From Sandarakinorhabdus limnophila DSM 17366 (GTDB taxonomy: Bacteria; Pseudomonadota; Alphaproteobacteria; Sphingomonadales; Sphingomonadaceae), in assembly GCF_000420765.1 (NCBI RefSeq), contig NZ_ATVO01000005.1, forward strand, positions 124,001 through 188,000: a stretch of 64,000 nt of DNA, read 5' to 3'. A program made the translations under genes and the position numbers. The first letter of the stretch is position 1; every line of letters begins with the position of its first letter. Shown here piece after piece: positions 11,093 to 49,107 of the stretch. The notes beneath the pieces were generated by a model. That model made no database searches, had not been told where the DNA came from, and was given only the letters and a program-made list of their open reading frames with translations.

Positions 11093-11336
11093 CCCACTAC
11101 GCCTGAACGTCACAACACCCCCGCCGTGGCGGCACGGCTTGTCGCGCCCTGCGCACCGTTCAACCGCGCTTTGGCCTGCTGTGCCAACCATGTTCATTCG
11201 GCAGCAATGGCGACAGGACGGAAGTGCACAACGGCAGCAATGGCCAAGGGCGACGAGGTTGCCCGATTACAGGGTTTGGCATGCCATCAGGGGCACCGGC
11301 AGCCGCGCCGCAACCGAACTGCAAGGGATTAAGCCG

Positions 11337-24891: not shown

Positions 24892-26253
24892 TCAGGCGGC
24901 GTTCTCGAGCCCATATTGCTTGAGCAGGTCATAGAGCGTCGGCCGGCTCACCCCCAGGAACTTGGCCGCTGTGCTGACATTGCCATCGGCACGCAGCATC
25001 GCCCGGCGAATGGCCTGGCGATCGGCAGTCTCGCGCGCAACCTTCAAGGTGAGGGCGGCTTCGTCGCTGCTGTTGACCAGATCGAGATCGGCCGCGGTGA
25101 GGCGGCTGCCTTCGGCCATGATGACGGCGCGCTTCATGCGGTTTTCCAGCTCGCGCACATTGCCCGGCCACGGCCAATCGGAGATGGCGGCGATGGCATC
25201 AGGGGTAAGGCCCTTGAAATCCCGGCCATTTTCGCGGGCGAAGCGCGTGAGGAAATATTGCGCCAGCAGCACGGCGTCACCGGGCCGTTCCTTCAGGCCG
25301 GGGATGCGCACAACGATTTCCGCCAGGCGGTAGAACAGGTCTTCGCGGAAGCGCCCGGCCGCGATCATCGCATCCAGATCCTGATGGGTGGCGCAGACGA
25401 TGCGCACATCAACCGGGATGGTCTTGCGGCCGCCCACGCGCTCGATCACCCGTTCCTGCAGGAAACGCAGCAGCTTCACCTGCAGCGGCAACGGAATATC
25501 GCCGACTTCATCCAGGAACAGCGTGCCGCCTTCGGCCATCTCGATCTTGCCAGGCTGGGTTTTCACGGCGCCGGTGAAGGCGCCTTTTTCATAGCCGAAC
25601 AGTTCCGATTCCAGCAGATTTTCCGGAATGGCGGCGCAGTTGATGGCCACAAAGGCCTCACCTGCCCGCGCCGAGGCATTGTGCAGGCCCTTGGCCAGCA
25701 ATTCCTTGCCGGTGCCCGAAGCACCCAGCAGCATCACCGACACATTGGCTGTGGCCACCCGCTCGACCATGCGGGCCACCTTGATCATTTCCGGCGCCGC
25801 CGTGACGATGCCGCCCAGCACCTTGTCACCACTGTTGCCGGCTTCGGCGAGACGACGGTTTTCGGCTTCCAGTTCCGCCACATGATAGGCGCGGCGCACG
25901 ATCAGGCCGAGTTCATCGATATCGACCGGTTTGTGATAGAAATCGAAAGCTCCCATGGCGATGGCGCGCCGCGCGCTTTCGCGCGCACCGTGGCCGGAAG
26001 CGACGATCACCTTGGTGTTCGGACGCGTGGCCAGGATGGCTTCCAGCGTGGCGAAGCCTTCCGTCACGCCATCGGGATCGGGCGGCAGGCCCAGATCCAG
26101 CGTCACCACCGCCGGCTGGTGCGTGCGCAGCGCGTCCAGCGCGGCCTCGCGATCACCGGCCAGGATCACCTCCTGGTCTTCGTAACTCCACTTCAATTGG
26201 CGCTGCAGGCCGGCATCATCTTCCACCACCAGCAGCTTGGGCTTCTCACTCAC
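24892..26253 (-). CDS. prsR: PEP-CTERM system response regulator PrsR
   Basis: A 453-aa NtrC-type regulator: receiver (LLVVEDDAG, phospho-Asp in [11 protein letters not shown], Lys in HKPVD), AAA+ domain ([43 protein letters not shown]) and C-terminal Fis HTH ([26 protein letters not shown]). The receiver variant [15 protein letters not shown] is diagnostic of PrsR. With PrsK it controls genes for PEP-CTERM proteins from sigma-54 promoters. All motifs are intact. Its start overlaps the end of prsK by 4 bp. Confidence 0.95.
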
Positions 26254-28376
26254 GCCTGTTCCCCTTCCGCCAGCAGCGCGGCCTTCCCGGCTGCGCCCCC
26301 AACTGCGCTGTTGCCACCAACAAGCGGCAGGGTGATGGTGAAGCTTGTGCCTTCGCCTTCACGGCTGGCCACGTCAAGCCGGCCGCCGTGGGCCCGGGCA
26401 ATCTCCCGCGCTTCGTAAGCGCCGATGCCAAACCCGCCGGCCTTTGTCGAGGTGAACGGCTGGAACAATTCCTGCCTGATGAACCTGGCCGACATGCCGT
26501 GGCCGCGATCGGCGAGCGTGACGACAAGTTCGCTGCCCGCCACGGCCACGTCGAAGCGGATCGGGGTGCCGGCCGGGGAGGCATCGATGGCATTCTGCAG
26601 AAGGTGCGCGAACATCTGTTCCAGCCGGGCGGCATCACCAGAGACCATCGCGTGATCAGCCTTGTCACCCACATGCAGGGTCGGCGCCGGCCAGGCGCCG
26701 GCCCGTGATTTCACCAGCAGGCGAAGCAGGCTGGCAACAGGCACTGGTGCGTCTGCCGCGGGCAGCCCCGTGGCGCGCTGCGAGAGCCACGACAGCAGGG
26801 CGTTCATCTTGCCCACCGATTCCTTCAGTGTTGCCACCATGTCGGTCCGGAATTCCGGATTGTCGGCATGGCGTTCGGCATTGCGCGCCAGCAAAGACAA
26901 TTGGCTGACCAGATTCTTGATATCGTGCAGAATGAAGGCAAAGCGGCGGTTGAATTCCTCGAACCGGCGCGCCTCTTCCAATGCCGACTGGCCGCGGCTT
27001 TCGGCGACATAGCTGCCCACCTGACGGCCAAGCGTTTTCAGCAGTTCCTCGTCTTCCCAGCCCAGCCGGCGCGGCACCAGACTGCGACCGATCAACAGCA
27101 CACCGGCCAGCGCATCGCGGTTGAAGGCCGGCAGCACCAGCCAGTACCGCCGATCGGCCGCCAGCCACGCCGGCAGTTCGGGCGCACCGGGCAATTCGCC
27201 ATCGCGCACCATTTCAAGATCGAGCAGCCGATCCTGCCGCAACCAGGCGACCAAGGGCGTGTCCATGGCCAGCGCTTCGGGCGGGCGATCGGCCATCTGC
27301 TAGGTGGCGCCAGGGCTGAAGCGATCATCATCGGGCACCAGCAACCAGCCGCCGCGCGCTTCCAGCACGCTGGCCACGGCCTGGACCACGCGTTCGGGCA
27401 ACCCTTGCGCATCGCCCGGTGCCGAAACGGTGGCGATAAAACGCAGCCATTCACTGCGATAATCATAGCGGTAGCGGTAGAAATTGCGTGCGATCGCCAC
27501 CCGCAGTCAGGCCCGGAACCGATCCGACACCAGGATGACGGCGGCCAGCATGATGGTGGCAAACAGGAAGCTGACCTGCAGCAGCGTGCCCCAATTGCCG
27601 CCCACCAGTTTCAGCGCGTAGGCCAGCAGCGACATGGCGATCAGGTAGAAACCAACGCCGGAGAAGGCGACGGTCTGGAAGGCAACATTGCGCGATACCC
27701 GCGCGCCGCGCACCCAGTTTTCGCGGGTGGCAAACAGGAACAGCAACACCAGCAGCGCGCTCACGGCGCCACGGATGTTGTAGAGATCGACTGAGGCCGG
27801 CGGCAGCAGGAAAGCCAGCGTGTAGAAGTTCAGATCATAGAGGAACAGACCGGCCAGGCCGATGGCGAGCAGACGAATGCCGGAAAGCTGGCCACCGCGT
27901 GAAGCGATGTAGAGATTGTGGCTGAGCACGAGACCGGTGACCGAGGCTGCAATGCGGATCACCAGGAACAGGCTGGCCACCACATCGCCTTCACCCACCA
28001 GAGCGCTCTGTCCGGCGCCGGCGATATCGATGACGAACTGCAGGGCGAGCACAAAGCCGAGGATGCCGCCCACCCAGAAGGAAGAGCGGCCCTCGCCCTC
28101 GCCGCCCAGCCATGTTGGCCGCAGCAGATACAGCAGCACCCCGATCCAGGCCCCGACCTTCAGGGTTTGCAGCCGCGAGATCCAGGGTTGCAGGCCGGGG
28201 TCAATCAGCATGCTGGCAGCAAAGCTGCCCGCCCACAACGCGGTTACAAGAGCGGCACCGGCCAGCCACAGATTGATGCCGCGGCGCTGTTTGGAGAGTG
28301 CTGCGAAGAACAGGCCAACATAGGCGATCAGCGCCAGCAAGTGGCTGAGCAGGCCGACTTCGGTGAGCGCGATCAC
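26250..28376 (-). pseudogene. prsK: sensor histidine kinase PrsK, interrupted by two in-frame stop codons
   Basis: Read from the GTG at 28376 (GGAG ahead of it), one frame covers the whole kinase of ~708 codons. It has eight or so membrane helices (to codon ~285), a GAF-like region, the histidine box FILHDIKNLVSQL, and the ATPase N/G boxes LLQNAIDAS and GGFGIGAYEAREI. The frame contains TGA at codon 290 (bases 27507-27509) and TAG at codon 359 (27300-27302). In homologues the first position reads RAW.RV, so it is probably TGG to TGA; the second may also be TGG to TAG. Without readthrough only the membrane part is made. Fragments 27300-27500 and 26250-27296 could start on internal codons. Confidence 0.8.
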
Positions 28377-28527
28377 CTTGGCGCTCCATGCGAACTGGTC
28401 TGAACTCTTGTCACCGCGATCTGTCCCTGCGCCCGTCTGGCCGCAGCCTATCGTCATGCGCGCCAAAGTGCCACCCCGTGCACCAGGGCTGATCATTGCA
28501 ACAGCTGTGATCATCTATCTTGTAATA

Positions 28528-48292: not shown

Positions 48293-48958
48293 TCAGGTCT
48301 CGCCCGCAAAGCCCAAAACGCGCAGCGCGCCATCGGGCAACGGGCGTTGCAGGGTGGCGGCTTCGGCCCAATCGGCGGTGAGCCAGCGGCGCTGTTCATC
48401 GGCCGTGGTGAGGATCACCGGCATGGCCTTGGGGTGATGGGGCGCCACTTCCGCGTTGGGTTCGCAAGTGAGGAAGCCGAACACGGTGAGAGTCACCTCG
48501 CCTTCGGCCTTCTTGCGGGTGCCGGTCCAGCGGGTGGCGAGGCCGGCGAAGCAGGCCAGCGGATCGTCTGCGGCCGGCGCGAACCATAGTGGCTGGAAGC
48601 CCGCATCCGACTTCACATGTTCAGCGAACGCGGTGAACGGTACCAGGCAGCGATAGGGCGGGGCCAGCCAGCGCCGCCAGTGGGGGCTGGCGGTGTTGCG
48701 GATGTTGGTGATGCCGCGATCGACCGTCTTGCCTTCCAGCGCAAAGGCTGGGCTTGGCATGCCCCAGCGGGCGAGGCTGAGGGTGGGGACAGGAGTGTCG
48801 CCGCGGGCCACGCCGATGATCGGTGCTTCGGCATCGGGATAGAGGCCGCCCAACACCGGCAGATTGCCGAGATTATCCTGCACCGCGCCCAGTTCCAGCA
48901 CGCGGGCAAGATCGCGCAGGGCCTGCTGGCCCTTGGTGAGCGCATAGAGATTGCAAAT
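48293..48958 (-). CDS. SRAP-domain (HMCES/YedK-like) protein, apparent ATT start
   Basis: SRAP proteins form a thiazolidine link to abasic sites through Cys2 after Met removal. The frame reads ICNLYALTKGQQALRDLARVLEL, where relatives begin MCNLYAL, so the start codon appears to be ATT at 48958 with AAGGGG just upstream. An internal GTG at 48901 would remove the catalytic Cys. The rest is complete: NIRNTASPHWRRWLAPPYRCLVPFTAFAEH (active Glu) and HHPKAMPVILTT (His). The length would be 221 aa. Confidence 0.65.
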   Translation of the reverse strand: MCNLYALTKGQQALRDLARVLELGAVQDNLGNLPVLGGLYPDAEAPIIGVARGDTPVPTLSLARWGMPSPAFALEGKTVDRGITNIRNTASPHWRRWLAPPYRCLVPFTAFAEHVKSDAGFQPLWFAPAADDPLACFAGLATRWTGTRKKAEGEVTLTVFGFLTCEPNAEVAPHHPKAMPVILTTADEQRRWLTADWAEAATLQRPLPDGALRVLGFAGET

Positions 48959-49027
48959 GGCCGGCCCCTTTCTGCGCCCATCAAGCGCGGCGGCCGGGGA
49001 TTGGCAAGTGGGGGTAGCGGCGCCGAG

Positions 49028-49107
49028 CTGCGGCCCGGCGGAAACACGCGCCGGGCCGCAGGGTGCAAGCGCCTGAAGCGGGCGGCTTCCGGTCCGCGCG
49101 CTTCAGG
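49028..49107. repeat. two tandem hairpins
   Basis: The first is a perfect 13-bp stem (CTGCGGCCCGGCG / CGCCGGGCCGCAG) with an 8-nt loop at 49028-49061. The second has a 9-bp stem (CCTGAAGCG / CGCTTCAGG) with an 18-nt loop at 49072-49107. No T-tract follows, so they are not classical terminators. They resemble REP-like elements. Confidence 0.6.

Follow-up and report, generated by a model that had tools for sequence, protein, structure and literature searches.

A gene of the SRAP (YedK/HMCES) family in Sandarakinorhabdus limnophila DSM 17366 opens with ATT where its relatives carry ATG. The question raised by this locus is whether the ATT is a weak but working start, a regulated one, a lost one or an error in the sequence. 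The window analyzed here is the whole 64,000-nucleotide stretch of contig NZ_ATVO01000005.1 in which the gene lies, and positions are counted from its first letter.

The SRAP frame and its only possible start

Read from the ATT, the coding frame occupies 48293-48958 on the minus strand and comprises 221 codons and a stop, as judged by translation and Pfam; it begins ATT TGC AAT CTC and is open down to its TGA. The ATT lies at 48956-48958 and is directly followed, at 48953-48955, by the TGC codon for Cys2, the family's abasic-site cross-linking residue (PMC9436759). A Shine-Dalgarno-like (SD) AAAGGGG at 48965-48971 ends 6 nt before the ATT. The frame and the upstream AAGGGG described in an earlier note on this DNA are both confirmed. 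The first ATG, GTG or TTG in frame is the GTG at 48899-48901 that the same note had singled out, and its use would indeed drop Cys2. In the other direction 48 codons lie between the ATT and an in-frame TGA at 49105, and ATG, GTG, TTG, CTG, ATT, ATC and ATA are all absent from them. The ATT is the sole table-11 start on the 5' side of the Cys, and the protein has no conventional start to use. Some 70 nt 5' of the gene, at 49028-49060 on the minus strand, is a 12-bp perfect inverted repeat with an 8-nt loop and no T run, which is present in three congeners too.

The statement that SRAP proteins need Met-Cys holds insofar as the Cys must be N-terminal. As an absolute need for Met-Cys it is slightly overstated, since N-terminal sequence preceding the Cys, even a tag, is reported to be removed (PMC3765255). 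Such removal is no rescue for the window gene because no upstream start is available, and an N-terminally extended product was ruled out on the same ground. Conditional on initiation at the ATT, Cys would be residue 2 of the product.

The predicted protein is otherwise an ordinary member of its family, scoring 62.1 bits against the Pfam SRAP profile PF02586 (cut-off 27.1). Its best solved relative is 2aeg, whose TNVR, SFAE and HEKAMPV align with TNIR, AFAE and HPKAMPV in the window protein, the regions of the active-site Asn, Glu and His (roles in PMC9436759 and PMC3765255). Translation and this alignment reveal no stop, frameshift or active-site change. The gene is the one SRAP match across the whole genome (2.61 Mb, 11 contigs, 99.99% complete).

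A lineage-specific start codon

When the first codon in relatives was compared, as the earlier note had proposed, all 11 congeneric orthologs (Sandarakinorhabdus or Sphingomonadales records, 70-95% identical) proved to have ATG-TGC. The start-codon change is lineage-specific. The GAAAGGGG core is also found in the two nearest ATG sisters, where the duplex energy is -8.5 kcal/mol; the window's is -7.0. Because the congeners have ATG and the SDs of the sisters are no weaker, the ATT is a private change without SD compensation. Predicted mRNA folding around the start gave no clear difference between the window's ATT and the ATG sisters.

A single-base difference that is absent from 11 of 11 congeners, in a species represented by one genome, could also be a sequencing or assembly error, in which case the true start would be ATG. 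This is rather unlikely given a 99.99% complete genome in 11 contigs, and given that prsK alone has convincing in-frame stops among 49 syntenic genes (45,420 bases; of two further flagged genes, one reads as a spurious frame and the other has its stop ahead of the start). That both stops fall in the same gene suggests genuine decay and not scattered errors. The relaxed constraint on SRAP described below is, moreover, independent of the base in question. The prsK-type gene, for a PEP-CTERM histidine kinase, lies at 26253-28514 on the minus strand; it has an in-frame TGA at 27509 and a TAG at 27302, at both of which the congener G010 has TGG, and it looks like a pseudogene from its sequence.

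Start codons were checked in 48 syntenic genes, and in two of them the window's codon at the common start is not ATG, GTG or TTG. Both cases were explained on inspection, one by an ATG three codons on and the other by a 12-base insertion just past the start. For 7 of the 48 no common start could be placed by script, SRAP among them, as its frame in G010 extends further upstream. Near the start of a gene other than SRAP, at 11328-11330 on the plus strand, the window has ATT where G010, G007 and G021 have ATG; unlike SRAP, that gene can still start, because an ATG follows three codons on.

Relative to three congeners, the window SRAP branch carries 7 nonsynonymous and 3 synonymous private changes, compared with 271 and 843 in the remaining compared genes of the region, which were polarised with two congeners (Fisher p 0.003). 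Codon 147 alone accounts for three of the ten SRAP changes, and high ratios are also seen in a few other genes of the region; the numbers are only suggestive of relaxed constraint. It may be that the start has been lost, and that the gene is an early pseudogene yielding no useful protein in a lineage undergoing gene loss. The relaxed constraint and the absence of any SD gain are in keeping with this, as are the two in-frame stops of prsK in the same window and a genome that is small for the genus. By gene content, SRAP is dispensable in the genus: a match is absent from 2 of 24 genomes, and several others have distant matches only. We nevertheless consider loss unlikely, for the gene is free of stops, frameshifts and active-site changes, and AUY starts are evidently usable in the SRAP genes of other genera.

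Start codons across the SRAP family

Rare starts are hard to count, because gene-calling programs for the most part expect ATG, GTG or TTG. An obligate N-terminal second residue, however, fixes the start codon without annotation. The N-terminal residue with which SRAP chemistry works is Cys2 (PMC9436759), so the codon preceding the Cys is the start regardless of how the gene is annotated. At 253 deduplicated SRAP loci this codon is ATG in 212, GTG in 27, TTG in 3, ATT in 1 (the window) and ATC in 10, the last not an unbiased rate since earlier sightings of ATC had prompted the searches in Aureimonas and Acetobacteraceae. ATA, CTG, ACG or any other codon was found at none of the 253. Five of 258 deduplicated proteins had been dropped for lack of a Cys at the aligned position, and two N-terminally incomplete Acetobacteraceae matches (G534) were left out. 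A closer estimate of the rate comes from class-wide canonical SRAPs not picked for ATC, with one ATC (L501) in 79 resolved loci, two of which (L432 and L434) were mis-anchored and read as ATG by eye. This sample began with 97 canonical matches, of which 90 were covered; 10 of these were unresolved, and in one more of them, the SRAP-family gene L517, Cys2 is replaced by Pro. Among 70 deduplicated viral loci with sufficient upstream sequence there was no ATC or ATT.

Because random decay of ATG should also yield ACG and ATA, ATC is best taken as a real start in these genes. On a tree of 183 proteins the 11 ATC and ATT rows need at least 10 changes. AUC is commoner than UUG in the SRAP clade (10 against 3 in 253) and comes with stronger SDs: the median duplex energy is -10.65 kcal/mol for ATC genes and -5.7 for ATG genes, and 7 of 10 ATC but 28 of 208 ATG genes reach -10 or below (p 1e-4, with rows not all independent). 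All 10 ATC genes are at -6.4 or below, a range that includes the -7.0 of the window, an SD stronger than the ATG median and weaker than the ATC median. Three Aureimonas species have ATC in common, with GGGAGG or GGGGAGG upstream, at a synonymous divergence of 0.7-0.84 and an omega of 0.12-0.17; by these measures their SRAP is very probably made and used, and the ATC kept under purifying selection. In Lichenicola cladoniae the RefSeq annotation of WP_171834201.1 itself begins at the ATC codon. Judged from such sequences, the family shows that rare starts can be stabilised where the SD is strong. We found no description of rare SRAP start codons in the literature searched on SRAP/HMCES and start codons.

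Five of the 10 ATC genes (L052, L058, L078, L096 and L228) have an upstream in-frame ATG, GTG or TTG, and their products may be N-terminally extended and autocleaved; the other five have none. Translational coupling to an upstream ORF was considered as well, and no common pattern was seen among SRAP loci. In many ATG genes (e.g. L049, L106 and L128) there is no SD, and a TANNNT-like hexamer lies just 5' of the ATG, a layout that would point to mRNAs with a very short leader or none; an SD is present in every ATC gene.

As a control, glmS is a second gene in which the catalytic Cys comes right after the start; its product begins MCGI at sampled loci. In 80 genomes searched, its start is ATG at 82 of 82 deduplicated loci, with three N-terminally incomplete matches left out and one row printed as ATA (L378) that is a mis-anchor, the ATG-TGC lying nine bases upstream. 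A general tendency of these genomes towards AUH starts is thus not supported. In essentially the same genomes ATC or ATT is found in 11 of 99 SRAPs and 0 of 82 glmS genes (Fisher p 0.001), a comparison that includes the window, is tilted to families where ATC was seen, and sets SRAP beside a gene that is probably more highly expressed. The positive control for rare starts was infC (L424-L427, L418, L419 and L422), whose apparent start, as read from sequence, is ATA after AGGAGAG at all four loci read in the window's genus and elsewhere, after a GGAG-like SD, ATC in Acidiphilium, ATT in Aureimonas and CTG in Pseudoroseomonas. A search of the window for GTTC-N7-GTTC, the LexA/SOS motif, gave 0 matches with 1.19 expected by chance, and control by LexA is not supported.

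The low abundance of the Escherichia coli yedK protein, tabulated at 0.176 ppm (PMC9841429), is consistent with a gene able to tolerate weak initiation. The choice of codon may be partly explained by overlap. Every ATG-TGY start contains AUGUG, which can initiate at the overlapping GUG (PMC9841429). ATC removes this GUG and leaves only a weak CUG, while ATA-TGY creates an out-of-frame AUG, which may help explain why ATC is found and ATA never is. Overlap avoidance is not the sole cause, because glmS has the same AUGUG and shows no ATC. For 61,358 ancestral AUG starts, Belinky et al. (PMC5622118) report switches to GUG, UUG, CUG (2) and AUU (1), and AUC goes unmentioned in the available part of that paper. 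It is possible, though on balance doubtful, that alphaproteobacterial SRAP genes make up a class, so far undescribed, in which output is set by AUC or AUU with a strong SD and the protection of abasic sites is IF3-gated, and that the family, its start pinned by Cys2, serves as a natural, annotation-free record of initiating codons.

The window gene and known rare-start systems

Our preferred reading, held at about even confidence, is that the window gene yields a low level of Met-Cys product from the ATT, as a recent, weakly translated hypomorph that is perhaps heading for loss. A one-base G-to-T substitution in the Sandarakinorhabdus lineage would have turned ATG into ATT at the only possible start. 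The AUU should still be readable by the initiator tRNA with fMet, the SD-like AAAGGGG would position the ribosome, and we infer that the cell probably still makes an intact Met-Cys SRAP, at a small part of the ancestral rate. This start would be unable to shift downstream as those of ordinary genes can, since the protein needs Cys2 at its N-terminus. Elsewhere a change of this kind has been stabilised, in several SRAP genes with AUC and a strong SD under purifying selection. The hypomorph reading would mean a genome whose sole SRAP is all but switched off. A silent gene would show relaxed constraint just as well, however, and no gain in the SD accompanies the change; the present computations do not tell a hypomorph from a dead gene or a base error.

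Of the outcomes posed by the earlier note, low-level translation or a lost start, the first is plausible as far as AUU initiation goes, because AUC with a strong SD recurs as the start of SRAPs elsewhere and infC of the genus apparently starts at ATA. Its comparison with the regulated start of infC fares less well. An evolved, IF3-gated ATT that holds SRAP low and responsive, in the manner of infC or sigR, would be consistent with the recurrence of AUC starts with strong SDs in the family, and has a precedent in sigR, where GTC with AGGAGGTG is repressed by IF3 (PMC5472188). We regard it as quite improbable and favour a recent hypomorph, because the ATT is not conserved in the genus, its SD has not been strengthened and constraint on the gene seems relaxed. 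IF3 gating has been demonstrated for sigR (PMC5472188) and might also apply to some rare SRAP starts.

Among known systems the closest is SRAP/YedK/HMCES itself, with which the window gene shares the PF02586 domain, Cys2 and the Asn, Glu and His regions, and from which it departs in having ATT where its 11 nearest orthologs have ATG. A weak start codon is also found in the IF3-limited genes infC and pcnB (AUU), ccpN (AUA), cvfC1 (AUU) and sigR (GTC). The starts of these genes are experimentally supported and several are conserved, whereas the ATT of the window is not conserved and is known from sequence alone. The AUC SRAPs combine a weak start with a strong SD, a design described in PMC5472188 and PMC13009471. 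Those of Aureimonas and Acetobacteraceae belong to the same family as the window gene and have the same fixed start position and an AUY codon. They differ from it in having ATC, in the stronger SD of 7 of 10, and in conservation among relatives: all 11 congeners have ATG where the window has its rare start, while ATC is conserved across the three Aureimonas species.
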